DNA from: Deltaproteobacteria bacterium HGW-Deltaproteobacteria-18
GTDB taxonomy: Bacteria > Desulfobacterota > Desulfovibrionia > Desulfovibrionales > Desulfomicrobiaceae
Assembly: GCA_002841885.1 (NCBI GenBank)
Contig: PHBE01000007.1
Coordinates: forward strand, 1 to 64,000
Length of the DNA: 64,000 nt
Direction: 5' to 3'
The notes under the pieces were generated by a model. That model was not told where the DNA came from. It worked only from the letters and a program-made list of their open reading frames with translations, and did not search any database. Made by a program: the position numbers and the translations under genes. Positions 3,658-36,261 of the stretch are shown in pieces. How positions within the stretch are numbered: the first letter of the stretch is position 1; the number at the start of each line of letters is the position of its first letter.

Positions 3658-5015
3658 TTGTCCTCCGGCGGGGCGATGAGCGCGTCGCGCAGGGCTTCGT
3701 CCAGGGTGGGGTGGGCGAAGATGTGTTCGTGCGCCGTGTGAGCGGTCCAGCGATCGCGGACCATGATCTCCGCCAGCGTGACAAGATGGGATGCGCCATG
3801 GCCGACGGCGGTCACGCCATGCACGACCCCATCCACCCAGGCGATCTTGACCAGACCCTGGGCCTGGCCGTGGGCCTGGGAGATCGGGTTGGCGCCGAGA
3901 TTGGCGCGGGAAACTTTCACGGCCTTGCCCTTGGCCGCCAGTTCGGCGGCGGTGTGGCCGGCGCGCATGACTTCAATGGATCCATAGATGCAGCCCGGGA
4001 TGGGGCCGGGATTGTATGGCGCGTTGGTTTCGCCCAGGGCGTGCAGCACGGCGTGGCGTCCCTGATGCTCGGCGGCGTGGGCCAGCAGGGTGCGGCCATT
4101 GACGTCGCCGATGGCGTAGATGTTTGGCGCTGCCCGCAGGAAGTCGTCGGTGGTGACCCAGCCGCCGCCGGTCAGGGCAATGTTTGCGTTTTCGAGCCCT
4201 AGGCCGGGAGTGTTCGGCTTTCGTCCGACGGCAACCAGGGCTTTCTCGACTCGGATTTCCGTGCCGTCCTCCAGCCGGACCATGACCGATTCGCCTTCAT
4301 TGACGAGCCCGGCCACGCGTTTGCCCGTGACGATGTTCCATTTTTTGCGCTTGAGCATGCCGTGGAGGGTTTGCGCGATTTCTTCGTCTTCGGCAGGGGC
4401 GATGCGGGGTGCGGCTTCGATGACATGGATTGAAGTCCCCAGACGGTGCCAGAAGTCGGCCATTTCAAGGCCGATGGCCCCCGCCCCGATGACCGCTAGG
4501 CTTGCGGGCGCTTCGTCGAGATCAAGAAGATCGGTGGAATCGAGAATCCGCGCGTGGTCGGGTTCAAGTCCGGGAAACCAGTTCGTGGTGGAGCCTGCGG
4601 CGATGATCAGCGTGTCGAAGCCCAGGGTCTGTTCGGTCTCGCCGGTGATGCGCAGCGTGTTTTTATTCAGCAGGGAGGCTTGACCTTGGAACAGGGCGAC
4701 CCCATTTGTAGTGAGGCAGCAGGACATGGCCTTGTGGGTCGCCGCGACAAAGGCGTTCTTTCGTTTTTTGAGCGCCCCCATGTCCATCTGCACGGAGCCG
4801 CTGCACAGGCGCAGGCGCGACTGGGCGCTCAGTCCCTCCAGGTGGGCTGTGGCTCCAAGATAGATCTTGGTGGGGATGCATCCCCAGTTGAGGCATGTCC
4901 CGCCGAGGTTTTGCTTCTCGATGAGGGCGACGTTTTTTCCTCTTTGACTGGCGAGCAGAGCTGCGGCATAACCGCCCGGACCTGCTCCTATGACAATGAT
5001 GTCAAAATGGCTCAT
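3654..5015 (-). CDS. lpd: Dihydrolipoamide dehydrogenase-type flavoprotein
   Basis: 453-residue FAD/NAD pyridine nucleotide-disulfide oxidoreductase. The start at MSHFDIIVIGAGPGG puts the FAD-binding GxGxxG near residue 10. The redox-active pair follows in GGTCLNWGCIPTK (CxxxxC), then the NAD-binding GAGAIGLE and FAD-binding YAIGDVNG. The C-terminal dimer domain ends with the HAHPTLDE segment that holds the catalytic His/Glu. The open frame extends 90 codons upstream of 5015, but that part shows no family similarity. It leads the lpd-maf-pgpA-hrpB operon. No 2-oxo acid dehydrogenase or glycine-cleavage genes lie in the window, so its partner complex is unknown. Confidence 0.9.
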   Translation of the reverse strand: MSHFDIIVIGAGPGGYAAALLASQRGKNVALIEKQNLGGTCLNWGCIPTKIYLGATAHLEGLSAQSRLRLCSGSVQMDMGALKKRKNAFVAATHKAMSCCLTTNGVALFQGQASLLNKNTLRITGETEQTLGFDTLIIAAGSTTNWFPGLEPDHARILDSTDLLDLDEAPASLAVIGAGAIGLEMADFWHRLGTSIHVIEAAPRIAPAEDEEIAQTLHGMLKRKKWNIVTGKRVAGLVNEGESVMVRLEDGTEIRVEKALVAVGRKPNTPGLGLENANIALTGGGWVTTDDFLRAAPNIYAIGDVNGRTLLAHAAEHQGRHAVLHALGETNAPYNPGPIPGCIYGSIEVMRAGHTAAELAAKGKAVKVSRANLGANPISQAHGQAQGLVKIAWVDGVVHGVTAVGHGASHLVTLAEIMVRDRWTAHTAHEHIFAHPTLDEALRDALIAPPEDK

Positions 5016-5184
5016 GTGGATTCCCGTGTGGCTTAATTGATGGGCATTCAAGCTGAAGCGCGAAATCCTAATCGGAAGCAGGGAGGAACTCAACCCTTGG
5101 CGCAACCTGTGCGCTTCGGCCGTAACCAGAGCTGGACAGGTGTCCGGCCTTTTTGTTTGGCAGGGCGGGTTGGCGGGGATTCCA

Positions 5185-5203
5185 ATACCAAAATACTCGG
5201 ATT
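5185..5203 (+). promoter_or_regulatory. Possible operator ATACC-N7-TCGGATT
   Basis: In the 236-nt gap between lpd and the 5252 gene there is ATACC, seven bases, then TCGGATT. The same half-sites with the same 7-base spacing occur at 10403-10421 just upstream of hmcA (ATACC-N7-TCGGAAT). The halves are imperfect inverted repeats (ATtCCgA against TCGGaAT), a form reminiscent of Rrf2-family sites. That an Rrf2 protein binds here is inference from spacing only. Confidence 0.25.
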
Positions 5204-5251
5204 TACAAGTCGCTTGCCTCTTCGTCATGGCGGAGAGGATATGGAGATACG

Positions 5252-6028
5252 ATGCAGGAGAATTTGAAAAGTCAGAGCGGGGCAAAGCGAAAGGGAGTCG
5301 CTTCGCTTTTTGACGATTACGAAATCAAGGACCTTTTTCGCAGATACATCCAGCTCTTGATAGTTGTCGAAGTGCTGATCTTTCTGGTCTGCTGGGTTTA
5401 CCAGTTGGGCATTGACGAGGTGGCGGTGACCGGAAAGCCCGTGGATGTGCCTTTTCCCTGGAAGGCTTATTTTCTGGTCTCTTTCTCGGCTCCTGTGGCC
5501 TTGACGTTTCTGGTCGGCATAGTGGTAGTGGCCTTCAACTCCTTTCTTTACGGACAGAAAAAAGGGACTGTGTTCAAGGAAACCTCGGCCGGAGGTGCTA
5601 CGAGCAGGTTGGCCAAGGCTGCCAATTTCTGTTTTCAACTCCCCTTTTTGCTGACTCTTCTGTTGCTGGGCGTATTCATGGGCATCGTCTATAATTTGGG
5701 CTCGATCATGGATTATCTGGGCCGTTTCGGCGAGGCTGCGGCCAGAGTCATTCTGATCGGGCTTGGCTGCGTGCTTGTGGCCGGGACCATATTCGGGATC
5801 GTGCGCATGATTCTCAACTACAAATTGCGCAAAAAGAACATGGAATACGATTACAAGCGGGAGGTCATGGACCGCCTGGGCATCGCAATCCTGGACGAAC
5901 GCACTATGATCGACAGCCAGGGGCAGGTGGTCGGGCCGCGCAATATCGAGATCTCCGCCGCCGGACAGGACGTGTTGCCGCCCGCGACGTCGGAATCCAC
6001 GGTTTCCGAGAAGCCGGATTGCCGCTGA
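5252..6028 (+). CDS. Unrecognised four-helix membrane protein
   Basis: 258-residue protein I cannot assign to a family. The start at MQENLKSQSG is chosen because GGAG lies 5 nt upstream. A basic, soluble N-terminus (about 30 residues) precedes four hydrophobic segments at about residues 34-55, 75-100, 128-150 and 163-185. A charged cytoplasmic-looking tail follows, containing MEYDYKREVMDRLG and ending in a Ser/Glu-rich stretch. It stands alone between a divergent lpd operon and the tmc genes and has its own terminator, so it is not obviously part of the Tmc complex. A putative operator at 5185-5203 resembles one upstream of hmcA. Confidence 0.75.
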   Translation: MQENLKSQSGAKRKGVASLFDDYEIKDLFRRYIQLLIVVEVLIFLVCWVYQLGIDEVAVTGKPVDVPFPWKAYFLVSFSAPVALTFLVGIVVVAFNSFLYGQKKGTVFKETSAGGATSRLAKAANFCFQLPFLLTLLLLGVFMGIVYNLGSIMDYLGRFGEAAARVILIGLGCVLVAGTIFGIVRMILNYKLRKKNMEYDYKREVMDRLGIAILDERTMIDSQGQVVGPRNIEISAAGQDVLPPATSESTVSEKPDCR

Positions 6029-6075
6029 AGAGTCTTTGATTGCCGTCCAAAAGGGAGTAATTCCTTGCATAACAG

Positions 6076-6097
6076 CCCGGTTTTTCCGGGTTTTTTT
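6076..6097 (+). terminator. Terminator after the 5252 membrane gene
   Basis: CCCGG, a T5 loop and CCGGG form a short 5-bp stem followed directly by seven T, 48 nt after the stop codon. The stem is short but all G-C, and the T run is clean. Confidence 0.6.
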
Positions 6098-6473
6098 GCG
6101 TCTTGTATCTTGCAGGCCAGTTTGATGACCTTGGCCGACGGGATTAATTCGCTTGAAAATCCAATTTTTGTAGCATTCGCTTACAGACGTGTCGTGTATG
6201 CATGAATGCAAAGTAGTGAATGTTTACCTGCTCTTGGGATAATGTGTATGAAAACAGTCCGAAATAATTTGTCGACTTATTGGGTCTGAAATCAAAATGA
6301 TATTTACACATTGTCATTTCTAGGCTAGCCGGATTGCAAGAAAATTTAGCAAGTAAAGTGAGTCTTTGGCATGATTTAGCAGGTTTGAGTGTTATAAATG
6401 CTCATCTGAATTCATTCCGACATCATGTGTAAGATTGGCTTTTGGCGTAACCTAGTTGGTAAGGAGGGCGTGT
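6098..6473 (+). other. Gene-free leader upstream of tmcD
   Basis: About 375 nt, clearly more AT-rich than the flanking genes, with no plausible ORF. It must hold the tmc promoter. A TATAAA at 6393-6398 could be a -10 element, but no good -35 is correctly spaced. TGGCATGATTTAGCA at 6367-6381 resembles a sigma-54 site, but its GG-GC spacing is one base short. GGAGG at 6463-6467 is the tmcD ribosome binding site. Confidence 0.5.
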
Positions 6474-7736
6474 ATGATTGAGTATTCTGCCTGGGATTGG
6501 GGCATAGGCTCCAGAACCGTGGCCGACCTATCCGAATGTGATTGCGACGTTGAATGGCGCGAGGAAAACCAGGTCAGTCCCGATGGCGAAAAGGTGGCGG
6601 CCGTGGTCAAGACCGGCGAGATGGAATTCAGCGTCTGTGTCAACGGCACATGTTGGGAGCCGAGGTATGAGCGCATCTGGTATTTGCGCTATTCTCCCGA
6701 TGGACGCTTGGCCGGATTGGCCTGCGACGGGGATTGGACCTTGTGCGTGGATGGTGAGCCTTGGGAAGATACCTACAGTTTTCTCTTCAACACGCTGTTT
6801 TCCAAGGATGGCTCGGTCATCGCCTGTTGCGTAGCCGATTCCATGACCTACGGAATGGTGGTCGAAGGAGTGCCCTGGGAAACGCTCTTTCCGAACGCCA
6901 ACAATTTTGTGCTCAGTTCCAACGGCAAGCGCAGTGCAGCCGTGGTTCAGACCGTGCCTCTGGGACAAGCCGACGTGTTCAAGTTCAAGGAAGGTGCCTA
7001 TTCCGTTGCGATTGACGGCACGCCTTGGGACGTGAACTTCGTGAACGTCTGGACGCCTCGCTTCAATGCCGACAATACTTCGGTCGCGGCCCAGATTCGA
7101 CACACGCTCTTCGATTACACCATTGTCGTTGATGGCAAGCCCTGGGCGGAGAATTTCAATCAGGTCTGGGAACCACTCTTTCACCCGGTCAAGAACTCTG
7201 TGGTCGCGCCAGTACGCCTGGCAGGCAAATGGGGAATGGCGCTGGATGGCAAGATCATCTGGCAGCCTACTTTCTTCCAGGTCTGGCAGCAGCAGTTCAG
7301 CCCTTCCGGTGACAGGCTCGCCGCCATAGTCTGTCCCAAATACGGACGCTGGACACTGGCCGTGGACGGCACCCCCTGGAACACGACTTTTGGCGACATG
7401 GTCATGGACATGACCTTCAGCCCCGACGGTAAACGTCTGGCCGCCCTTGGCAAGCAGGATGGCAAATGGACCGTATTCTCCGACGACAGGGCTTGGAGCA
7501 GCCACTACGATATGTGTTATGCTCCTGTTTTTTCTCCGGACAGCAAGCATGTCGCCGCCAGAGTGGAAAAAAATGGCCGTTTCACCATTTCGGTGGATGG
7601 CAAGGATTATGGCCAGGGTTTCGATCAATGCTTTGACCCGACGTTCAGCCCCGATGGAAGCAGGATTCTCATTCGCGCCATCGTGGACGGAAAGTACCAA
7701 AGAATTGTCGAGTCCGTAGCAAAAATTATCGGATAA
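6474..7736 (+). CDS. tmcD: TmcD, tryptophan-rich repeat protein of the Tmc complex
   Basis: 420-residue soluble protein without a signal peptide, so probably cytoplasmic. It consists of about nine repeats of ~40 residues, each with an FSPDG-type turn, a VAA strand, a W or Y strand and a VDG-PW motif, plus a final half repeat. This suggests a beta-propeller. The Trp-rich composition and its position directly before the tmcC homologue identify it as TmcD, a Tmc subunit with no assigned activity. The start at MIEYSAWDWG has GGAGG 6 nt upstream; upstream in-frame codons lie before that ribosome binding site. tmcC follows after 11 nt. Confidence 0.82.
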   Translation: MIEYSAWDWGIGSRTVADLSECDCDVEWREENQVSPDGEKVAAVVKTGEMEFSVCVNGTCWEPRYERIWYLRYSPDGRLAGLACDGDWTLCVDGEPWEDTYSFLFNTLFSKDGSVIACCVADSMTYGMVVEGVPWETLFPNANNFVLSSNGKRSAAVVQTVPLGQADVFKFKEGAYSVAIDGTPWDVNFVNVWTPRFNADNTSVAAQIRHTLFDYTIVVDGKPWAENFNQVWEPLFHPVKNSVVAPVRLAGKWGMALDGKIIWQPTFFQVWQQQFSPSGDRLAAIVCPKYGRWTLAVDGTPWNTTFGDMVMDMTFSPDGKRLAALGKQDGKWTVFSDDRAWSSHYDMCYAPVFSPDSKHVAARVEKNGRFTISVDGKDYGQGFDQCFDPTFSPDGSRILIRAIVDGKYQRIVESVAKIIG

Positions 7737-7747
7737 GGAGGCTAGAC

Positions 7748-8407
7748 ATGCAGGATGTCTATTTATTGGTATCTGGCCCCCTGGCTTGGGCTGCCTGGAT
7801 TATTTTTGTTCTTGGATCAATATACAAAATCTGGTCGACACTGAATACAGCGAAAAAGAAAGATCAGGTTTTACTTAACTATATCTCATTCAAATACGGA
7901 TTGAGATCCATCATCAACTGGTCAATTCCTTTCAATACGGTCAATATGAGGTTGAACCCCATTTTTACCGGAGTGGCATTTTTCTTCCACATTGCTTTTT
8001 TTGTGTTGCTCATATTTGTTTCCGCGCATCAAATCATGATCGAGGAAGGATTCGGTATCGGCTGGTTCACCATTCCTGATTTTGTGGCCGACATTCTGGC
8101 CTTTGCGGTCATTGGCGCGTGCATCTTCTTTGCCGTGCGTCGGGTCATTCGTCCCGAAGTGAGCTATGTCACCGATTGGACGGACTTTGCCCTGCTCGCC
8201 CTTGTGGCGGCGCCCTTTGTGACGGGATTTTTGGCCTACCATCAGCTTGGTAATTACATGCTCATGGTCGTGCTGCACATGGTTTCGGCAGAGCTTCTGC
8301 TTGTGGCCATTCCCTTCACGCGTCTCAGTCATATGCTGCTGGCTCCTTTGACCAGAGCGTATATCGGGTCTGAATTCGGCATGGTGCGCCACGTCAAGGA
8401 TTGGTAA
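7748..8407 (+). CDS. tmcC: TmcC, cytochrome b subunit of the Tmc complex
   Basis: 219-residue integral membrane protein of the HdrE/NarI-like cytochrome b type, with about five hydrophobic segments. Histidines that could ligate haem b appear in helical contexts: FHIAFF, VSAHQ, AYHQLGN, VLHMV and RLSHM. It carries electrons between periplasmic TmcA and cytoplasmic TmcB through the quinone/haem b region. Its closest relative in the window is HmcE (14609-15283), with the same layout and a shared C-terminal RLSH/KLSH element. The ribosome binding site AAGGAGG lies just before the ATG. Confidence 0.87.
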   Translation: MQDVYLLVSGPLAWAAWIIFVLGSIYKIWSTLNTAKKKDQVLLNYISFKYGLRSIINWSIPFNTVNMRLNPIFTGVAFFFHIAFFVLLIFVSAHQIMIEEGFGIGWFTIPDFVADILAFAVIGACIFFAVRRVIRPEVSYVTDWTDFALLALVAAPFVTGFLAYHQLGNYMLMVVLHMVSAELLLVAIPFTRLSHMLLAPLTRAYIGSEFGMVRHVKDW

Positions 8408-8422
8408 AAAGAGGAGAACGCT

Positions 8423-9739
8423 ATGAAAGAACGCGTCTGGATAAAAGACGAAGGTGTTGAACGGGGGGCTGAGAAGCTGACCCCGGAGAAGATCGAGAAG
8501 ACGATCAACGCGGTGCTTGGGAACGAAGCCGGTGCGCGAATGAAAGCATATGTCGAGACATGCGCGCACTGCGGGCTCTGTTCCGAGGCCTGCCATTTCT
8601 TTCTTTCCCGCGACCGCGACCCGCGCTTTTCCCCCGTGGGCAAGGTCAAACAGACCATCTGGGAAATGCTTGACAAGAAGGGCAAGGTTTCCGTTGAATT
8701 CATGAAGCAGGCCACTCAGATAGCGCAGACTGAATGCAATTTGTGCAGAAGATGCGTGCAGTATTGTCCTTTTGGAATAGATATTGGCTATATGATGACT
8801 ATGGTGCGTCGTATTGTGCACAAGCTGGAACTTACTCCTTTATATATCCAAGATACTGCACATTCTCACTCCGCGACCATGAATCAGATGTGGGTCAAGG
8901 ATGACGAGTGGATCGACGCCCTGATCTGGCAGGAAGACGAATTGCGGGAGGAATTGCCGAGCGCCCGCATCCCGCTGGAAAAGGAAGGCGCCGAGATCAT
9001 GTACTCCGTCATCGGACCGGAACCCAAGTTCCGCACCCAGCTTATCTACCAGGCTGCGGCTATTCTGAACGAATCGGGGTGCGATTGGACCATGCCAGCC
9101 ACTCCTGGCTGGGACAACTCGGATATGGCCATGTTTACCGGAGACTCGGAAATGATGGCTCGTCTGAAAAGGACGCATTTCGAGACTGCGGCGCGACTCA
9201 GGGTCAAAAAGATCGTCATGGGAGAATGCGGTCATGCATTCCGGTCGGTTTACGATACAGGCAACCGTGTTCTGGGATGGCAGATGCCGCCCATCCCGGT
9301 TGTCCATGCCCTTGAGTTTTATTGGGATTTGCTTAATGCAGGCAAAATCAAGGTTGCCAGGCAGATAGAAGAGCCGGTGACGTTTCATGATCCGTGCAAC
9401 GTGGTGCGTGGGCGAGGTCTTCATGAAAAAGCCAGGGAAGTTGTACGCGCTTTCTGTCCAAACCTGGTAGAGATGCACCCCAACAGAGAACACAATATCT
9501 GCTGCGCGGCTGGCGGAGGAGTTATCAATTGTGGTCCGCCTTTCAAGAACTCTCGCGTCGAAAGCAACAGTATCAAGGCTGAGCAGCTCAAAGCCACTGG
9601 GGTCCGACTTTGCATAGCTCCATGCCACAACTGTCACGGCGGACTTGAAGACATTATCCATAAATACAAGCTCGGCATGGAGCTCAAGTTCCTAGGGGAA
9701 ATTATCTATGATTGCATGGAAAAACCAAATGCTGTCTAG
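8423..9739 (+). CDS. tmcB: TmcB, HdrD-like iron-sulfur subunit of the Tmc complex
   Basis: 438-residue cytoplasmic iron-sulfur protein. Two [4Fe-4S] motifs are near the N-terminus: CAHCGLCSEAC (about residues 48-58) and CNLCRRCVQYC (about 100-110). The C-terminal half is CCG-domain-like, with ECGHAF, HDPCN, ICCAAGGG and IAPCHNC, the pattern of heterodisulfide reductase subunit HdrD that can carry an unusual cysteine-rich cluster. It should accept electrons from TmcC on the cytoplasmic face. HmcF (15301-16683) is its paralogue. It lies 15 nt after tmcC behind GAGGAG. Confidence 0.9.
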   Translation: MKERVWIKDEGVERGAEKLTPEKIEKTINAVLGNEAGARMKAYVETCAHCGLCSEACHFFLSRDRDPRFSPVGKVKQTIWEMLDKKGKVSVEFMKQATQIAQTECNLCRRCVQYCPFGIDIGYMMTMVRRIVHKLELTPLYIQDTAHSHSATMNQMWVKDDEWIDALIWQEDELREELPSARIPLEKEGAEIMYSVIGPEPKFRTQLIYQAAAILNESGCDWTMPATPGWDNSDMAMFTGDSEMMARLKRTHFETAARLRVKKIVMGECGHAFRSVYDTGNRVLGWQMPPIPVVHALEFYWDLLNAGKIKVARQIEEPVTFHDPCNVVRGRGLHEKAREVVRAFCPNLVEMHPNREHNICCAAGGGVINCGPPFKNSRVESNSIKAEQLKATGVRLCIAPCHNCHGGLEDIIHKYKLGMELKFLGEIIYDCMEKPNAV

Positions 9740-26825: not shown

Positions 26826-27800
26826 GTGTTTCATTCGCTGCGTCATTTGAGTTGGGTTTTCTCCATTGTGCTGCATTTGATTGTGCTGCTCGGCGGAGCC
26901 TATGTTTCCACGGACACCCATATAAAACTAAATCTGAACAAAAGAATGTACGAGGTCGACCTGGTCGGCCCTCCGAACAAGGGCAAGCCCGGCGCCAAAA
27001 GTGCACCCAAGAAGGCCTCGGAAAAGGAAGCGCCCCCACAAAAGCCCGCGCCCAAGGATGCCAAGACGGTGAAGGCTCCGGATGAGCCGAAAAAGCCGGA
27101 CAAGAAAGTTGCGCCTAGCGAAACTGCCAAGGCGATTCCGTCGGATTCGGTGAACGCCACCAAGGTGGCCGAGGCCAAGCCCGAGGAGCCAAAGAAGCCG
27201 GAGCCCAAGAAGGAAGCGCCCAAAAAGGAAGAGCCCAAGAAGGAAGAGCCCAAGAAGACCGCCAAGGAAGAGCCTAAAAGCGAACCCAAGGTCGAAAAGA
27301 AGCCTACCAAGGAAGAAGTTCTGGCGCAGGCGCTGGGTGAGGCGACCAAGGTCGCCAAGTCTTCCTCCACGGGCGGCACGGACGGCTCGGCAAAAGGGAC
27401 CTCCAAGAGCGGATCAAAGGATGCCCTGGCCGACGCACTGGCTGATCTGGGGCGTGAAGTCTCGGGACGGGGTACCCGCGGGGACGGGACGGCCGAGGAT
27501 GGAGACGGCGAAGGGGTGTCCTCCGGCAGTCTGGACCAATTTTATGCCACGCAGGTCGTGCGGGCCATTCGCCAGAATTGGAGATTCCCCCGCTTATCGA
27601 ATATTGTGCTGGCCACGACGGTGGAGCTCAAAGTGAATAAGGCAGGAGAAATACTGGGTTCGCGTATGTTGAACGGGTCCGGGCGATCCGATTTTGACGC
27701 GTCGGTCATGCGTGCCATCGAGGATACCAAGAAATTGCCCCCCTTGCCTGAAACACTGGACGCGACTCTGGTCATAACTTTTTATAATACGGAAAATTGA
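26826..27800 (+). CDS. tolA: TolA/TonB-type energy transducer
   Basis: 324 residues: a transmembrane anchor (about 8-28), a long Lys/Pro/Glu/Ala-rich periplasmic stalk (about 45-190, with repeated KKEEP units), a Gly/Ser-rich linker, and a TonB/TolA C-terminal domain (about 235-324: VVRAIRQNWRFP, VELKVNKAGEI, FDASVMRAI). The position between tolR and tolB makes TolA the likely role, linking TolQR to TolB-Pal. GTG start with GGATAAGG upstream. Confidence 0.88.
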   Translation: MFHSLRHLSWVFSIVLHLIVLLGGAYVSTDTHIKLNLNKRMYEVDLVGPPNKGKPGAKSAPKKASEKEAPPQKPAPKDAKTVKAPDEPKKPDKKVAPSETAKAIPSDSVNATKVAEAKPEEPKKPEPKKEAPKKEEPKKEEPKKTAKEEPKSEPKVEKKPTKEEVLAQALGEATKVAKSSSTGGTDGSAKGTSKSGSKDALADALADLGREVSGRGTRGDGTAEDGDGEGVSSGSLDQFYATQVVRAIRQNWRFPRLSNIVLATTVELKVNKAGEILGSRMLNGSGRSDFDASVMRAIEDTKKLPPLPETLDATLVITFYNTEN

Positions 27801-27813
27801 GCAGGAGTCTGCC

Positions 27814-29133
27814 TTGATCAAAAAAATCCTTCTCATGCTGTTTGCGCTGCTGGCTTTCTCCGGGCCTGTCCTGGCGGCCGGAGTGCTGAATATCGACATC
27901 TATGGCCCGGGTCAGTCCAGGGTCAATCTTTTTGTGGCCGAGGCCCTATCCAAGGACGGCTCGGGACCCATGGGCGGCATCCCCGACAATGCTCCGGCGG
28001 AGTTGCAGCAGCGCATTCATGACAACTGTGCCTTTTTGCCTTTTTTTAACATGCTCTCGGGCAAAGATATCGTCGGCGGCCCCAATCCGGGCGGCTATGT
28101 TGCGCAGAGCATCGACTTCAACAAGTTTCAACTCTCGCGCACGGACGTGCTGGTCACAGCTGCATGGGCCCCTCGTCCCGGCGGAGTCGGCGAGGTGGAA
28201 CTTCGAGCATACGAGGTCTACACTGGCCGTCTGGTCGTGGGCAAGGGCTACGGCGTGGCCAATAAACAGCAGATTCCCGAGGTAGCGGCGCGCTTCTGCG
28301 CGGACCTTATGGAAGCGTTGACCGGGCAGGGGGATTTTTTCCGCTCGAACATCGCTTTCATCAAGAAAGAAGGGCAGCGCAAGCAGGTCTACATGGCCAC
28401 GGCGCAGGGTCTCAATCTGCAGAAAATCACCAATCTCGACGGGATTGCCGTCAGTCCTGCCTGGTCGCACGACGGGCAAAAACTGGTTTTTGTCTTTCTG
28501 GACAAGAAGTTTCACAATCTGTGCGTCTGGGATCGGCAGACCAGAGCGCTGCAGAAGAAGAGACTCCCCGGGAATACCCTCATCGCCCCAGCCTTCACCA
28601 AGGGCGGGAATGTGGCGATCAGTCTCGATATGAGAGGAAATCCAGATATTTATGAGCTCAATTCTGAATACAAGGTCGTGCGGGCCCTGGAGGAAAACTG
28701 GGGCATAGACATCGGGCCGGATTTTGATCGGTCCGGTGAAAAAATGGTTTTTGTTTCCAATAGGTTGGGAAATCCGCATGTGTTCCTCAAAAACCTGGTG
28801 ACAGGGACGAGCAAACGCATCTCCCTGACCGGAAAATACAACACCGGTCCAAGCATCAGCCCCGATGGTTCCCAGGTTGTTTTTGCCCAGATGGTGAACG
28901 GAAAACATAAGTTATTTCTGGTGGATTTGGCTTCCGGGCGTGAGCGCCAGTTGACATTTGGGCCCGGTAGTGATGAAGATCCCACTTGGTCTCCCGATGG
29001 TTATTTCATAGCTTTTGCATCAACCAGATCCGGTCCGAGCAAAATCTATCTGACCACCAAACACGGAGACGAACCAATCTTGATTCCAACCGGACCAGGA
29101 GAAGCGACTTCTCCGGCCTGGGGGAAATTATAA
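27814..29133 (+). CDS. tolB: TolB periplasmic beta-propeller
   Basis: 439-residue periplasmic protein: signal peptide (about 1-22, ending VLAAG), an alpha/beta domain, then a six-bladed propeller seen as repeats of SPDGS or SHDGQ turns with IYLT/IYEL strands. It binds Pal and the TolA C-terminus. TTG start with AGGAGT 6 nt upstream; no better start exists in frame. Confidence 0.92.
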   Translation: MIKKILLMLFALLAFSGPVLAAGVLNIDIYGPGQSRVNLFVAEALSKDGSGPMGGIPDNAPAELQQRIHDNCAFLPFFNMLSGKDIVGGPNPGGYVAQSIDFNKFQLSRTDVLVTAAWAPRPGGVGEVELRAYEVYTGRLVVGKGYGVANKQQIPEVAARFCADLMEALTGQGDFFRSNIAFIKKEGQRKQVYMATAQGLNLQKITNLDGIAVSPAWSHDGQKLVFVFLDKKFHNLCVWDRQTRALQKKRLPGNTLIAPAFTKGGNVAISLDMRGNPDIYELNSEYKVVRALEENWGIDIGPDFDRSGEKMVFVSNRLGNPHVFLKNLVTGTSKRISLTGKYNTGPSISPDGSQVVFAQMVNGKHKLFLVDLASGRERQLTFGPGSDEDPTWSPDGYFIAFASTRSGPSKIYLTTKHGDEPILIPTGPGEATSPAWGKL

Positions 29134-29173
29134 TGGCAGAGGCGTGTTTTTTTTTGTGTTAATGGAGGAAGTT

Positions 29174-29713
29174 ATGAAGAAGTTAGGCGTTTTTGGATTG
29201 ATCGTTTTGGTTTTTTGTTTGGCCATGGCTGGCGGTTGCTCCAAAAAAGTGAGCTCCACCCCTGCTGGCGCGACTGCTGCTGGTGCTGGAGACGGCTCCG
29301 GTGCTCAGGGTGGTTTGACGGCAGAGCAGCTCGAAGCGCAGCGCCTTGCTGAACTGCAGCGTCAGGCTATCGAAAAGATCGGTGCAGACAAGATTTATTT
29401 TGCTTTTGATTCCAATGAATTGACTCAGGAATCCCGCCAGGTTTTGACGGAGAAGGCCGAGCTGTTGAAGGCCAATCCTGCATTGTCCCTGCTTGTTGAA
29501 GGACATTGCGACGAACGCGGAACCAACGAGTACAACTTGGCTCTTGGCGAACGCAGAGCCCGTGCTACCTATGAGTTTCTCGTTCTTTTGGGAATTGATT
29601 CGTCCAAGCTGCAGATTATCAGCTACGGCGAAGAATACCCCGCGGTTCAGGGTTCCAACGAGGAAGCCTGGTCCAAGAACAGACGCGCAGAATTCAAGGC
29701 CAGCGCAAACTAG
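29174..29713 (+). CDS. pal: Peptidoglycan-associated lipoprotein Pal
   Basis: 179-residue outer-membrane lipoprotein. The signal peptide ends in a lipobox (MAGGC, Cys about residue 21), then an Ala/Gly-rich linker and an OmpA-like domain with IYFAFDSNEL and EGHCDERGTNEYN, the latter containing the Asp and Arg that bind diaminopimelate. Last gene of the tol operon; GGAGG before the ATG. Confidence 0.94.
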   Translation: MKKLGVFGLIVLVFCLAMAGGCSKKVSSTPAGATAAGAGDGSGAQGGLTAEQLEAQRLAELQRQAIEKIGADKIYFAFDSNELTQESRQVLTEKAELLKANPALSLLVEGHCDERGTNEYNLALGERRARATYEFLVLLGIDSSKLQIISYGEEYPAVQGSNEEAWSKNRRAEFKASAN

Positions 29714-30096: not shown

Positions 30097-30143
30097 TAGG
30101 ACCCATGGGGCTCATATGCTCCATGGGTCCTATTTGTTTTTTT
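30097..30143 (+). terminator. Isolated strong terminator-like hairpin
   Basis: TAGGACCCATGG pairs with CCATGGGTCCTA (12 bp), extended inward by three pairs including one G-U, with loop TCATAT, then TTTGTTTTTTT. It is oriented for plus-strand transcription, although no plus-strand gene ends here and tol-pal already has its own terminator 310 nt upstream. It touches the end of opgH on the other strand. Confidence 0.75.
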
Positions 30144-32238
30144 AGTCCAGCCTGACTTTCCAGCGCTTTTCAAGATCATCCTGAGGCAGTGACCAGATGT
30201 GCTCGTGCAGCCTTTTCATGCGCTGTGCGTCATACAGGAGTTCCTTCTTTTCTTTTTTGGAGAGAGATTCCGGGCCGTTGTCCATGGTTTTTTCCAGGAT
30301 GGCGTCGCGGCGCTTTTCAATTTCCGGGGCCAGGGTGCGAGGTCCGCGCAGCATGGTGCGGTGCAGGGTGTTGACTCCCGGGATGACGGCAGCTCTGAGA
30401 AAGCCTTCCTCGGGTGGGATGCCGAAGCTGGATCTGTCTTCGGCGATTTTTTGCAGATAGCTGTCAATGTCCTCGTATTCGCGAGGCAGACGGATTTCTT
30501 CCGGCGTCGTGAAAATCCGCATGCCACGAAAAAGTCGGCCCAGTTCGGCCCGGCTGGTGAGCATGGACACCGGGATGGAGAGCAAGAGGGATACCACCAG
30601 CGGCGAACTCCACCAGAAGAAGACCCGGTTGATTTGAAACATCGCAACTCCCCAGACAAGGCCCAGCAGCGTCCCGCCGCCGTGAAAGCGCAGGGCGTCC
30701 CAGAAGCGCGTGCCTTCGTCGTCGCGCTGCTGGGTGCCCCAGCCGATACCCATGCCCATGAGAGTCAAGAAGACGTACTTGCTGTGAAAGAGCATGCGCA
30801 CGGGGGCCAGCAGGGTCGACAGCACGACCTCCGTCATGATGCTGCCGCACAATGCGAAGAAACCTCCGAACTGTTTTCGACGGCCCTTGATCAGAGCCAG
30901 GAGCAAGGCGCAGACCTTGGGCAGAAAGAGGATGACGGCGGTTCCGGCCAGCAGGAACAGGGCCGGTGTGGGATCCCAGACGGGCCATATGGGAAAGAGG
31001 GATTTGGCTGGAGCGAAATAGTCGGGCTGGACTACGGCCTCGGTGATCGCTGCGGCAGTGGCCAGGGCCAGGAACAGGAACCAGAGCAGCGCAGAGCCAT
31101 AGGCCATGACTCCGTTTAGAAACAGGGCGCGGTGTCCGGGAAAGATCCCGCGCGTGAAAACAAGGCGAAGATGCTGCAGGTTGCCCTGACACCAGCGTCG
31201 GTCACGTTTGAGCTCGTTGAGCAGGTTGGGGGGTACCTCTTCGTAGCTGCCCTCAAGGTCATAGGCCAGCCAGACGGCGTATCCCGCGCGGCGCATGAGG
31301 GCGGATTCCACAAAGTCGTGGGAGAGGATGTCGCCGCCCAGCGGAGGCTTGCCTGGCAAGCGCGTCAGTGCACAATGCTTGATGAAGGGCTTGACCCGGA
31401 TGATGGCGTTGTGTCCCCAGAACTGCGCATCTCCCAGGAACCAGTGATGCAGCCCTGCCGCGTACATTGGGCCATAGGCCCTGTTGGCGAACTGCTGGGC
31501 GCGGGCGATGAGTGTCTCGCGCCCCGTGCAGGCCGGGGCGGTTTGCAGGATGCCGACGTTCCGTCTGCGTTCCATGATGCGCACCATGCGGATCAGCGTT
31601 TCGCCGGACATGACGGAGTCAGCGTCAAAGACGATCATGTAAGTGTAATGGGCGCCGTGGCGGCGGCAAAAATCGGCTACGTTGCCGCTTTTGCGCTTAA
31701 GATTGATGCGTCGGCGACGGTAGAAGATGTGACCATGCGCACTGAGGTTTTCGCACAGCCTGTTCCAGGCTGTCTCTTCCTGCACCCAGCGGTCGGGGTC
31801 GCTTGAGTCGCTGAGGATGTGAATGTCGAATCTGTCCGCCGCGCCAAGTCTGACCAGCGAGCGCCAGACGGCCTGGATTCCGGCCATGATCCGCTCCGGG
31901 TCCTCGTTGCAGACGGGAAAGAGGATGGCGGTCTTGACGTGGGCGCGGATGGGTGCATCGAGCTCTCCGCGTGAGCGTGTCACGGCAAAGCGGTCGTCTT
32001 TTTTGAGCAGTGTCCAAAATCCGGCCAGGGCGGTCCAGAATCCGAGCGAGATCCAGATGAAGAGCACGCAGTAGACGAAAATGATGCTCGCTTCGAGGTA
32101 GGTGGTCCCACGATGCGGGAGCAGCGATCCCATGACGCTGGCGGCGATCAGAGCCGGGGTCAGGACCAGGATCAGGAGCAGGAGTCTGCGGCGGCTGGCG
32201 ATCTTGCGCCAGGGTTCGTTCAAGAATTCTCTTTTCAT
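30142..32238 (-). CDS. opgH: Osmoregulated periplasmic glucan glucosyltransferase OpgH
   Basis: 698-residue inner-membrane glycosyltransferase (GT2) that polymerises the beta-glucan backbone from UDP-glucose. Visible are two N-terminal helices, a GT domain with VFDADSVM, WGHNAIIRVKPF, LSHDF and RDRRWCQGN, then several C-terminal helices. It matches E. coli OpgH (847 residues) from about residue 135 onward, so the long cytoplasmic N-terminal region of that protein is absent. AAGGA precedes the ATG. It is the last gene of opgG-orf164-opgH, with a 116-nt gap before it. Confidence 0.9.
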   Translation of the reverse strand: MKREFLNEPWRKIASRRRLLLLILVLTPALIAASVMGSLLPHRGTTYLEASIIFVYCVLFIWISLGFWTALAGFWTLLKKDDRFAVTRSRGELDAPIRAHVKTAILFPVCNEDPERIMAGIQAVWRSLVRLGAADRFDIHILSDSSDPDRWVQEETAWNRLCENLSAHGHIFYRRRRINLKRKSGNVADFCRRHGAHYTYMIVFDADSVMSGETLIRMVRIMERRRNVGILQTAPACTGRETLIARAQQFANRAYGPMYAAGLHHWFLGDAQFWGHNAIIRVKPFIKHCALTRLPGKPPLGGDILSHDFVESALMRRAGYAVWLAYDLEGSYEEVPPNLLNELKRDRRWCQGNLQHLRLVFTRGIFPGHRALFLNGVMAYGSALLWFLFLALATAAAITEAVVQPDYFAPAKSLFPIWPVWDPTPALFLLAGTAVILFLPKVCALLLALIKGRRKQFGGFFALCGSIMTEVVLSTLLAPVRMLFHSKYVFLTLMGMGIGWGTQQRDDEGTRFWDALRFHGGGTLLGLVWGVAMFQINRVFFWWSSPLVVSLLLSIPVSMLTSRAELGRLFRGMRIFTTPEEIRLPREYEDIDSYLQKIAEDRSSFGIPPEEGFLRAAVIPGVNTLHRTMLRGPRTLAPEIEKRRDAILEKTMDNGPESLSKKEKKELLYDAQRMKRLHEHIWSLPQDDLEKRWKVRLD

Positions 32239-32354
32239 TAACGTCCTTCATGAGGAGGCCGAGCCCTGGCTATGCGAGCCCTGGGCGGCAGTGTGAAAGT
32301 CCGGGCGATTCGTCTGGCGCGTTTTCTTCAAGACCCTGTTTGCCTGACCTGGCG

Positions 32355-32849
32355 TTACGGCAGGTCTGCGTCGAGAAAATAGAGCCCCGCGAGCAGGAGT
32401 GCGTACAGCAGAATATCGATCAAGCGTGAATTGAAAAAGGACGCGATCATGTTCCAAAGAGGCCGCCCGAGGCGCAAAAACATGCGTACCCAGGGGCGTC
32501 TGTCCATCTCTTCGGGCTTCATGTGCACACGCTGCAGAGGCGGCCCTGGCACCACGAAAAGCGGGATCGGCTGCTCGCAGAGAAGCTCCCGCAGGATGGT
32601 CATGGCTCTGGCTTCAGCCTGCGACGGACTGTTGCCGGGATCTTCGGCCAGGGTTGTCAGCGTCTTCAGGGCCAGTTCGTGGCGGCTTCTCTCCGGCAGC
32701 GGCAGGTGCCTCAGATAGGCCGCGACCCGTCTTCCTGCTGCTTCCAGCCGGGTTTCGAGAATCGTGGCCGCCGTCTCCACCGGAGGGTGGGAGACGCCTG
32801 GAATGCAGGCATCGAGTGGCAAGGGAGGCTCCAGGTGTTTGCTTTTCAT
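32355..32849 (-). CDS. Small membrane protein between opgG and opgH
   Basis: 164 residues, not a family I recognise. A soluble, Arg/Leu-rich alpha-helical part (about 1-130, with VAAYLRHLPLPERSRHEL) precedes one transmembrane helix at the C-terminus (about 143-160, LIDILLYALLLAGLYFL). The ATG overlaps the opgG stop as TGATG, so it is translationally coupled. Because opgH here lacks the N-terminal cytoplasmic domain, this protein could supply a replacement or regulatory subunit. That is inference from position only. Confidence 0.75.
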   Translation of the reverse strand: MKSKHLEPPLPLDACIPGVSHPPVETAATILETRLEAAGRRVAAYLRHLPLPERSRHELALKTLTTLAEDPGNSPSQAEARAMTILRELLCEQPIPLFVVPGPPLQRVHMKPEEMDRRPWVRMFLRLGRPLWNMIASFFNSRLIDILLYALLLAGLYFLDADLP

Positions 32850-34417
32850 CAGAGCTTTATGGCGTAGGTCCACGTTTCGGTCAGCGGAGTTACGCCGTGT
32901 TGCAGGATTGCCCGCATTTCGATGCTTGGTCTCTTGTCCGGAAGGACCATGGAGAGAGCCGAAGTCGAGTCGGGTTCGATTTCGAATACCAGACGCCAGC
33001 CGCCTGTGACAGGGTTTTTGTGGACGCGTTTTTCCAGGAGTTTGCCACCCATTCCGACCCAGACGTTGGCATCAAGGGCTGCGTCATCCGGCAAATCTTC
33101 AAGCTTGCCGCCCATGAATTCGAGCACGAACAGCCTGGAATTGGGCTTTTTGCCTTTTCCGGTGCGCGTGAAGATGACCTGGCCCTCTGGAGAGGCCACG
33201 CGCTTGGGCGGAGACCAGCGCATCCTGTAGTCAAAGGTGACGGCTTGCCCCGGCTGCGGATTGATGTCCGGAGTCCAGAAGGTGACGATGTTGTCATGAA
33301 TCTCTTCCGGGGAGGGAATCTGAACCAGATGAAGCTTCCCGGGGCCCCAGTCGCCCTTGGGTTCGATCCAGGCGCTGGGCCTGGCCTCGTATTTTGCTTC
33401 AAGGTCGAGGTAGCTGGCATACTCGGTGTCGCGCTGCATGAGGCCCATGCCCCGGATATTGGGCGCGCTGAAGACATTGACGGACAGGGATTTGGGATTC
33501 TGCAGCGGCCTCCAGATCCATTCTCCGTTTTCAAGGGCTGCCATCAGGCCGTCTGAGTCGTGTACTTCGGGCCTGAAATCGTCGCTCACGCGTGGATTGG
33601 AATTTTCCCCGAAGATGAACATGCTGGTCAGTGGCGCGATACCCAGCTTGACCACCGATTCGCGCACAAAAAGAATGGACTCGACGTCGAGCACGGTTTC
33701 CGCCCCCGTAGTGACTTCGAAGCGATAGGCTCCGGTAACGCTGCGTGAATCCAGCAGGGCGTAGATGATGATGGACTTGTCTTTTTTGCCGGGTTTTACG
33801 ATCCAGAATTCCTTGAAAAAAGGAAATTCCTCGCCCGAGGGCTCCGCCGTGTCGATGGCGAGGCCACGGGCGGACAGACCGTAGTTCTGCCCTTTGCCCA
33901 CGGCCCTGAAATAGCTGGCCCCGAGAAAGACCAGGAATTCATCAAGATAGTTCTTGGTGTTGATGGCGGTGTGGATGCGAAATCCCGCGTAGCCCATTTC
34001 GGCCGGAATCTGGGCGGCAAAATCGTTCTTTCCGTAATTGAAGGCTTCAGTGTCGAAGGCCAGGCGGGTGGGAACGTTCTTTTCCACCACGTTGATGGCT
34101 ACCGTGCGGTCGTAAAACAGCCCCGGATGAAAAAATTGCAGCTCAAAGGGCAGCTTTTCATTTCGCCACAGGCTTTTTTCCGGGACAAAGCGAATGTCCC
34201 GCCACTGGTCATACGAGATGGTCTTCAGGACCTGCGGTACCAGCCCTGCGTTGTCTTCGTAAGGTTTGGCCGAGAGCTCTCGTGCCATGGCCGCGACGTC
34301 CTGCAGGCCGAAGCTGGCGGTCTGGGCCTGGCTCTGTGGCTGAGCCTGGAGCGGGACGGTGGATAAAAAGAGGAAAAGTCCGGCCACAAGACCGCACAAT
34401 CCGTTATGACTGAACAT
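32849..34417 (-). CDS. opgG: Periplasmic glucan biosynthesis protein OpgG
   Basis: 522-residue periplasmic protein needed for glucan backbone branching and release, MdoG family. A signal peptide (about 1-27, ending LQAQ) is followed by the MdoG beta-sandwich domain (FGLQDVAAMARELSAKPY, FPFFKEFWIVKP) and a C-terminal Ig-like part. The start at 34417 has AGGAG 8 nt upstream; the 21 codons further upstream in frame lack a signal-like sequence. First gene of the opg operon. Confidence 0.92.
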   Translation of the reverse strand: MFSHNGLCGLVAGLFLFLSTVPLQAQPQSQAQTASFGLQDVAAMARELSAKPYEDNAGLVPQVLKTISYDQWRDIRFVPEKSLWRNEKLPFELQFFHPGLFYDRTVAINVVEKNVPTRLAFDTEAFNYGKNDFAAQIPAEMGYAGFRIHTAINTKNYLDEFLVFLGASYFRAVGKGQNYGLSARGLAIDTAEPSGEEFPFFKEFWIVKPGKKDKSIIIYALLDSRSVTGAYRFEVTTGAETVLDVESILFVRESVVKLGIAPLTSMFIFGENSNPRVSDDFRPEVHDSDGLMAALENGEWIWRPLQNPKSLSVNVFSAPNIRGMGLMQRDTEYASYLDLEAKYEARPSAWIEPKGDWGPGKLHLVQIPSPEEIHDNIVTFWTPDINPQPGQAVTFDYRMRWSPPKRVASPEGQVIFTRTGKGKKPNSRLFVLEFMGGKLEDLPDDAALDANVWVGMGGKLLEKRVHKNPVTGGWRLVFEIEPDSTSALSMVLPDKRPSIEMRAILQHGVTPLTETWTYAIKL

Positions 34418-34671: not shown

Positions 34672-36261
34672 TTAGGATTGCTCTTTGCGGTGCTCGACTC
34701 GCCCTTTGGCGATGAGTTCCTCGAGGTTGAATTTTCGTACCCGGTACCCCATCTGGCGAGGTGTCAGGTTAAGTTCCCGGGCTGCCTTGTACTGAATCCA
34801 GGCATTTCGTTTGAGCGCCGCCAGAACCTCTCTGCGCTCGGTTTCCTTGAGGGGTTGGCAAAGATTTTCCTGCTCGGAGGGGATGAAAGGCTGGGGAGCC
34901 TGCCTGACCGTTCCGGGGCGGTGCGCTTCGTGAGTGAGGAAGCCTCGTACCAGTTCCGCTTCCACCGGTTTGTCGTCGGTCAGAATGGCCAGGCGCTCGA
35001 CCAGATTTTCAAGCTCGCGCACGTTGCCGGGCCAATCGTAAGCCAGCAGCAGATCGAGAGTGCCCGTGGTCAGGGTCAGACTGCGCCCATATTCGCGTTC
35101 CATTTCCTTTTGAAAGTGATTCAGAAGCCGCGGGATATCTTCCTTGCGTTCCCGCACCGCCGGCACGTGCACCGGGAAGACGTTCAGTCGGTAGTAGAGG
35201 TCTTCGCGAAAGAGTCCTCGGCCTACGAGGACTTCAAGTTCGCGGTTGGTGGCGCTGATGATGCGTACATCGACCTTGCGCGTCTTGTTGCTGCCTATGC
35301 GTTCGAATTCGCGTTCCTGCAGCACTCGCAGCAGCTTGGATTGCAGGGTGAGGGGTAGTTCGCCGATTTCATCCAGGAAGATCGTACCCAGGTGCGCATC
35401 CTCGAAACGGCCGGGCTTGGCGCTGTTGGCGCCTGTAAAAGCCCCTTTCTCGTAGCCGAAAAGTTCCGCCTCCAGCAGGTTTTCGGGAATGGCGGCGCAG
35501 TTGACCTTGATGAATGGATGGGTTTTGCGGTCCGACAGTTCGTGGATGATGCGTCCGATGAGGGTCTTGCCCGTCCCCGATTCCCCGAGGAGCAGCACCG
35601 TGGCCTTGGTGATGGCGACCTTGGCCACGTATTGCTCGACTTCGAGCATGGCCTGGCTCTTGCCCACGATGTAGGGGCCATGATTCTCCCTGGCGATTTG
35701 GTACTTGAGCGAGGTGTTTTCCTGCTGGAGGGCGGCCTCTCTTTTTTTTACTTTTTCGTTAAGACTCAGGAATTGAGAAATGAGCGTGGCCACCACGGTC
35801 AGAAATTCCGTGTCGGCATCAAGTTGTTCCTGGCCCGTGAAGACGCGGTCCACGTTCATGACCCCGATGGGGGTTCCGTGCAGCAGAATGGGCACGCCTA
35901 CAAACGATATGCGTTCCCGGCTGATTCGGCGCGTGCCCGTTTTGTCCAGAAAGAGAGGTTCCAGGGAAATGTCCGGGACCACATATGGTTTTGCCGTGCG
36001 GAAAATGATTCCCGTGATCCCTTCGTCCATGCGATATACTCCGCGCTGTTTTTCAAGCGCCGAGAGGCCGTAGGAGGTGGATATGGCCAAGCGGCCAGAG
36101 AGGGGATCGTACAGAGTGACCGTGGCCCTGCGCATGTTCATGGTGTCGGACAGAATCTTCAGAATTGATTCCAGAGCGCTTTCCAGGTCCAGGGCCTGAT
36201 CGATGACCTTGCTGATGGCCAGCAGGACGCGCAATTCGGTGGAACAGGTTGAGGTACTCAT
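34672..36261 (-). CDS. NifA-like sigma-54 activator (GAF-AAA+-Fis)
   Basis: 529-residue enhancer-binding protein. An N-terminal GAF domain (about 15-175) is followed by a short linker and a sigma-54 interaction AAA+ domain (about 205-440) with Walker A GESGTGKT, an intact GAFTGA and Walker B LDEIGE. A Fis-type HTH is at the C-terminus (NAWIQYKAARELNLTPRQMGYRVRKF region). Domain order and the HTH resemble NifA. No nif genes lie in this window, so the target is unknown; the flanking opg and yihY genes are candidates only by proximity. Confidence 0.85.
   Translation of the reverse strand: MSTSTCSTELRVLLAISKVIDQALDLESALESILKILSDTMNMRRATVTLYDPLSGRLAISTSYGLSALEKQRGVYRMDEGITGIIFRTAKPYVVPDISLEPLFLDKTGTRRISRERISFVGVPILLHGTPIGVMNVDRVFTGQEQLDADTEFLTVVATLISQFLSLNEKVKKREAALQQENTSLKYQIARENHGPYIVGKSQAMLEVEQYVAKVAITKATVLLLGESGTGKTLIGRIIHELSDRKTHPFIKVNCAAIPENLLEAELFGYEKGAFTGANSAKPGRFEDAHLGTIFLDEIGELPLTLQSKLLRVLQEREFERIGSNKTRKVDVRIISATNRELEVLVGRGLFREDLYYRLNVFPVHVPAVRERKEDIPRLLNHFQKEMEREYGRSLTLTTGTLDLLLAYDWPGNVRELENLVERLAILTDDKPVEAELVRGFLTHEAHRPGTVRQAPQPFIPSEQENLCQPLKETERREVLAALKRNAWIQYKAARELNLTPRQMGYRVRKFNLEELIAKGRVEHRKEQS

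Follow-up and report, generated by a model that had tools for sequence, protein, structure and literature searches.

The N-terminal domain of OpgH appears to be encoded as a gene of its own between opgG and opgH in a Desulfomicrobiaceae bacterium

What has become of the N-terminal domain of the glucan synthase OpgH in a bacterium whose opgH gene begins just ahead of the first transmembrane helix (TM1)? The question is raised by a 64,000-nucleotide stretch of DNA (the window; positions 1 to 64,000 of contig PHBE01000007.1 from Deltaproteobacteria bacterium HGW-Deltaproteobacteria-18), which carries three opg genes on its minus strand: opgG (MdoG; 32849-34417, 522 residues, match to Pfam MdoG PF04349 at E 1.1e-191), a gene for a 164-residue protein, here called P0001 (32355-32849), and, 116 nucleotides beyond its stop codon (gap 32239-32354), the start of opgH (30142-32238, 698 residues, P0002). 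The window OpgH is a clear family member, scoring 922.8 bits against the MdoH model NF003958 (cutoff 419). In the alignment with the long MdoH model NF003955 its residue 7 falls on position 137, so that some 130 N-terminal residues are absent compared with E. coli-type OpgH. An earlier reading of the letters alone (the sequence-only reading) had proposed both that this region is missing and that a 164-residue protein joined to opgG lies between the two genes. The alignment bears out the former, and the latter is confirmed by the open reading frames (ORFs) and by the one-base overlap of the opgG stop TGA with the ATG of the small gene (TGATG). Judged by the comparisons that follow, P0001 is almost certainly the OpgH N-terminal domain encoded as its own gene.

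In sister genera, blastp matches residues ~35-127 of P0001 to the part of OpgH directly ahead of the P0002 equivalent, and the matching stretch lies in one open frame with OpgH, of 830-868 residues (the fused frame of genome G061, at 1059 residues, runs on upstream). Pairwise identity of P0001 to fused domains is 37-47%, over part of its length. A hidden Markov model (HMM) built from 31 stand-alone proteins, with no fused forms, scored fused OpgH of Endozoicomonas at E 1.5e-11, of Pseudomonas at about 1e-9 to 1e-7 and of E. coli K-12 at 8.8e-4, the best reversed decoy in this small database reaching 0.95. At E<0.01 this model recovered 15 of the 16 fused OpgH of the phylum samples (G203 stood at 0.03) and 59 of the 71 named in-frame OpgH, counted among the matches listed. 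Aligned by hhalign with 70 beta/gamma-type OpgH N-termini, the stand-alone profile yielded E 7.7e-11 at a probability of 97.1, the match running collinearly through 95 columns; controls with the OpgH C-terminal part and with reversed sequence gave 0.62 and 0.34. In a leave-out test, each stand-alone protein was removed from the profile together with its relatives at ≥50% identity, and 3000 other ORFs served as background. Thirty of the 31 proteins were recovered at E<0.01 (G439 at 0.03), the sole better-scoring background ORF was a second copy of the N-domain gene (N gene) on contig L077, and the next background ORF, in the one run inspected, had E 0.24. The sequence-only reading had offered two options for the small protein, a detached and diverged OpgH N-domain or a new regulator of glucan synthesis. 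The collinear fused homologues and the profile score uphold the first; the second gives way to homology with the OpgH N-domain.

P0001 looks like a real gene under purifying selection, the ratio of nonsynonymous to synonymous change (dN/dS) being 0.144 at dS 0.61 against its counterpart in genome G138 and 0.14-0.23 across the six pairs compared, in five of which dS exceeds 1. Single-sequence searches found no match to it in Pfam or NCBIfam at E<=10 and none among the sequences of the Protein Data Bank (PDB), and for the window OpgH itself the PDB sequences offered no relative at E<=0.01. AlphaFold2, run with five models on a 34-row alignment, predicts a three-helix bundle (helices 27-47, 53-68 and 75-92; residues 27-92, 32574-32771, minus strand), an extended motif and two further helices (119-138 and 141-160), with a mean predicted local distance difference test score (pLDDT) of 84.4 overall and block means of 86-97 in the bundle. 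The sequence-only reading had given the protein one C-terminal helix. Hydropathy agrees in marking a single membrane helix, but AlphaFold predicts two helices there; residues 141-160 (32370-32429, minus strand), picked out by both methods, form a hydrophobic helix that is the probable membrane anchor.

The predicted bundle precedes a conserved PPxxRxxMxP motif, the linear element GPPLQRVHMKPEEMDRR (residues 102-118; 32496-32546, minus strand), which aligns with residues 83-101 of E. coli OpgH. Within it, PPLQRVHMKP holds an arginine, R107, that is invariant in the 34-row alignment of detached and fused forms, and a proline, P103, conserved in at least 90% of rows. A bare pattern, P..R..[MLVIF], was also tried as a motif test and dropped, as it turned up in 174 of 519 control windows and in 486 of 1550 shuffles, and 7 of the 31 stand-alone proteins lack it; because of this the claims made here rest on profiles and alignments. 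An AlphaFold model of the fused OpgH of Mailhella (L076) shows three matching helices (9-20, 26-39 and 47-65), a correspondence judged by helix order between predictions made from alignments with many sequences in common. Over its enzyme part this fused model is similar to cellulose and hyaluronan synthases. Structure searches of the PDB with the P0001 model returned generic helical matches only (best Foldseek E 0.91; best VIA-align Z 7.9, not above the level which that tool calls common), an outcome that rules out no family.

How regularly does the domain accompany OpgH? It is present in all 42 sampled genomes of the window's phylum (Desulfobacterota, with the order Desulfovibrionales, judging by named relatives such as Mailhella) that have a whole OpgH, fused in 16 and separate in 26, and because it is a separate ORF in the window and in those 26 genomes we regard P0001 as a split form and not as a domain of OpgH. 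The class sample, of 149 genomes, contains 26 with OpgH, the domain being fused in 10 and separate in 16. The first search with P0001 matched 23 of the 149 and failed to reach the domain in five genomes (G036, G075, G141, G142 and G048) where it was detected afterwards, in G036 by reading the ORF between opgG and opgH; its matches in G131 and G113, which have no OpgH, and a second match in G140 look like chance. The phylum-wide sample (395 genomes) contains 18 with OpgH, namely the window's own, 16 new ones and a partial one (G497, set aside); six of the new ones are fused and ten separate, the separate genes having been picked by eye with a loose pattern. A hydrophobic C-terminal helix is present in 17 of the 26 separate proteins. 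Beyond these genomes, at least 80 named loci were sampled. An offset criterion placed the upstream part in frame in 71 of these, 7 have a separate ORF and 2 could not be judged; L102 and L103, at contig edges, were excluded before counting, and L074 and L075 are not independent of the 42 since they encode the same N proteins as G413 and G304, respectively.

It had been suggested that homologues standing beside a full-length OpgH would speak against the detached-domain idea. In the sister genera the homologue is itself part of the full-length OpgH, and whole-genome searches of the fused genomes with P0001, which a more diverged copy could escape, gave one match each, except for the weak second match in G140, on another contig at E 0.008. 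A short OpgH commonly found without the small protein was likewise named as speaking against it. Among the 42 genomes of the phylum that could be assessed there is no short OpgH without a companion, but the Pseudomonadota differ. There, 75 of 299 sampled genomes gave 86 OpgH matches, which rough patterns sorted into 38 with an R-type and 22 with a PL-type motif (60 in frame) and 26 with none in frame, 7 of which have a separate ORF (by eye). This sorting errs both ways: it overlooks L227, in whose tail the motif can be seen by eye, and it probably counts noncoding upstream frames at some loci without opgG, such as L239, L240, L250 and L251. Among the 19 matches left with neither form, 13 come from fetched stretches in which opgG could not be recognised. 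There are thus OpgH-like enzymes that show no recognisable N-part, and most of them lie away from opgG.

The fused or separate state has changed repeatedly. On a quick tree of 78 OpgH cores, which carried long-branch warnings for some alphaproteobacteria and Mitsuaria, the label has to change 8 times, and strongly supported branches force at least 5 of these changes. On a reduced tree of 66 rows (without the alphaproteobacteria, Leptospira, E. coli, Mitsuaria, L105, L143 and L145), 6 changes are needed. With these 66 rows, a single clade of all separate forms was rejected by the approximately unbiased test (p-AU 1.9e-107), and so was a clade uniting the forms whose C-terminus bears a hydrophobic helix (p-AU 5e-4), in tests that used a simpler model and groups named only after the first tree was seen. 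The changes may have been fissions or fusions. In contig L077 the N gene and opgH have been duplicated as a pair, as is expected of a working pair, in the order opgG, N (4050-4487), opgH (frame 4366-6600), N (6601-7119), opgH (frame 7007-9220).

The two genes have also been parted. In G138 the separate N gene lies 9.8 kb from opgH; between them, in the 15-kb locus L051 of this relative, is an element of 9.67 kb that carries what looks by eye like an integrase gene. The element sits at the very start of opgH, whose ORF is intact, and is flanked by a 14-bp repeat, ATGAAACGAGAATT, that takes in the opgH start codon. In another relative, G018, one frame (locus L052, 1467-2522) encodes a detached N-domain, then a hydrophobic helix, then a second copy of the C-terminal part of OpgG, which suggests a membrane-spanning fusion of both synthesis partners.

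A separate small protein is also known from Rhodobacter sphaeroides, where the gene order is opgGIH and opgC and where opgI is reported to be needed for glucan backbone synthesis. We compared OpgI-type proteins of Sulfitobacter and others, standing in for R. sphaeroides OpgI itself; in Sulfitobacter opgG and opgH flank a gene for a 56-residue product, and a gene with an OpgC domain follows. A profile of alpha-type tails was built from 26 of 53 fused OpgH tails in the Pseudomonadota sample, chosen by motif and called alpha-type by their likeness to named Sphingomonas and Bradyrhizobium tails. It scored the OpgI-type proteins of Sulfitobacter D7 at E 3.9e-9, of S. dubius at 7e-6 and of Qingshengfaniella at 6.6e-4, and a separate ORF, L233, at 1.4e-6. 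All of these rank above every one of 4905 background ORFs, the best of which reached 0.18, which makes it very likely that OpgI-type proteins are OpgH tails that have become detached. The OpgI-like ORF L234 was not significant with the same profile (E 12). In an NCBIfam scan of eight small proteins, one of the three OpgI-type proteins matched the N-terminus of an MdoH model (7-40) as its best and only match, at E 0.024; the other two and both of two Leptospira proteins gave no match. By hhalign, OpgI gave E 0.003 against three pooled tails (Sphingomonas, Bradyrhizobium and Mitsuaria) and 0.47 against beta/gamma tails. The link from the alpha-type tail to the P0001-type domain rests on position and motif, without a significant profile score. 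No statement equating OpgI with the OpgH N-terminus was found in the literature searched, a coverage that left out most subscription journals. We also note that the OpgI-like ORFs in L066 (3648-3902; Qingshengfaniella) and upstream of mdoH in L176 (Sulfitobacter indolifex) are absent from the PLSDB gene table, which is itself incomplete.

We think it probable that P0001 serves as an obligatory, non-catalytic subunit of OpgH, acting in trans. The protein would fold as a three-helix bundle, its own C-terminal helix would hold it at the inner membrane in place of the covalent link to OpgH TM1, and the PPxxRxxMxP motif would be presented to the OpgH glucosyltransferase for glucan synthesis. Such a role would parallel the one ascribed to OpgI in Rhodobacter, and in fused relatives a single chain would supply both sides of this contact.

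Several observations weigh against this proposal and the homologies on which it draws. The stand-alone HMM misses 12 of the 71 named in-frame OpgH at E<0.01 (again among the matches listed), several of the 12 without any match, L080, L081, L095 and L118 being clearly missed. The membrane anchor is less than universal, a hydrophobic helix being missing from 9 of the 26 separate proteins found in the phylum samples. The motif of the fused L076 model lies at block pLDDT 64-73, which leaves its docking on the enzyme conjectural, and the 9.7-kb element that parts the two genes in G138 means that tight co-transcription is not required. Aligned by hhalign with the stand-alone family, OpgI brings the motif into register at E 0.19 only, while the OpgH C-terminal control reached 0.023 against OpgI. 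Finally, 19 of the 86 Pseudomonadota OpgH show no motif in frame by the rough pattern and no visible separate gene, and because of these exceptions strict co-occurrence is limited to the OpgH clade of the window and does not extend to the whole superfamily.

Other roles for the small gene have to be set against these points. The detached domain might be mainly a moonlighting inhibitor of FtsZ, tying cell size to UDP-glucose and dispensable for glucan synthesis. According to PMC3723540, E. coli OpgH 1-138 inhibits FtsZ, an 18-residue peptide of it (83-101) suffices for division inhibition and midcell localisation, deletion of residues 83-101 has no significant effect on inhibition by this N-terminal fragment (OpgH-N), and the comparison figure is limited to gammaproteobacteria. 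That peptide, EAKRSSMFPDPWRTNPVGR, aligns with the conserved motif of the P0001 family, which fits a role in division; yet the motif is conserved far beyond the gammaproteobacteria of the published comparison, and the N gene has been duplicated together with opgH in L077. The precedent of OpgI likewise points to synthesis, since PMC10514313 states that R. sphaeroides opgI and opgH complement E. coli without opgH. We consider a mainly regulatory role unlikely. Since bacteria distant from E. coli and separately encoded neighbours of OpgH also keep the motif, it more likely served the synthase first than FtsZ control, and the present analysis gives no support to an FtsZ or cell-size role of the domain in this organism.

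Less likely still is that the domain serves to dock a different cytosolic partner of the synthase, such as acyl carrier protein. The E. coli glucan synthase is reported to need that protein, and a small helical bundle with a linear motif, as predicted here, is a common adaptor design; the structure searches, however, turned up generic helical matches only. There is hardly any room for the reading in which the small gene is an unrelated insert between opgG and opgH and this OpgH never needed an N-domain. No database family matches P0001 and its identity to fused domains is modest and partial, as such an insert would have it, but the hhalign score with its clean controls, the collinear fused homologues of the sister genera and the matching predicted helix arrangement of detached P0001 and fused OpgH all stand opposed. 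Unless all of these are artefacts, the profile and synteny results refute it.

We put forward a wider proposal only tentatively, as somewhat short of probable: the OpgH N-terminal motif would be an ancient and widespread activating element of glucan synthases, able to act in cis as well as in trans, separated from the enzyme or reunited with it on at least five occasions, and identical with OpgI. The inhibition of FtsZ reported for E. coli would on this view reflect either a use confined to that lineage or an effect of overexpression, the main function of the element being to switch on the glucosyltransferase, and one may ask whether the FtsZ-inhibiting peptide belongs in the first place to the glucan synthase. 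In bacteria with split genes the domain can be deleted while the enzyme is left intact, which turns the role of the OpgH N-terminus into a simple test. P0001 moreover defines a protein family that models of Pfam and NCBIfam do not match, and the detached-tail reading gives OpgI a likely identity.

The surroundings of the three genes can be described briefly. Directly upstream of opgG, on the same strand, lies a gene resembling a sigma-54 activator with GAF, AAA and Fis parts (34672-36261, by eye); a site search of the window found sigma-54-like sites no commoner than chance. Tail to tail with the opg genes lie tolA-, tolB- and pal-like genes (26826-29713, by eye), and a pal-like gene occupies the same place in the relative G138.

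How, then, does the locus compare with known systems? The short OpgH/MdoH model NF003958 begins near TM1, as the window OpgH does, and is silent on a companion protein. OpgH-N of E. coli is collinear with P0001 and shares with it the YLxxLPL helix start and a PxxxRxxMxP motif; it differs in that P0001 is a separate gene product with its own C-terminal hydrophobic helix, and identity to P0001 is only 18-34% in alignment A3, which combines detached and beta/gamma-type fused forms. OpgI, as seen in Sulfitobacter, sits between opgG and a short opgH just as P0001 does, and OpgI-type proteins bear the motif of alpha-type OpgH tails, which is related to that of P0001, but at 56 residues the Sulfitobacter protein is too short for a helical bundle and a membrane helix. 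In Leptospira (L069, 3477-3845; L070, 3465-3854) a small gene whose product ends in a hydrophobic helix lies between opgG/opgD and opgH. Although the hhalign score (E 0.029, from two sequences) leaves homology suggestive only, this 122-129-residue protein resembles P0001 in gene order, in its similar size, in its C-terminal helix and in an SMVP string at the matching place, and is possibly the product of the same split in another phylum.

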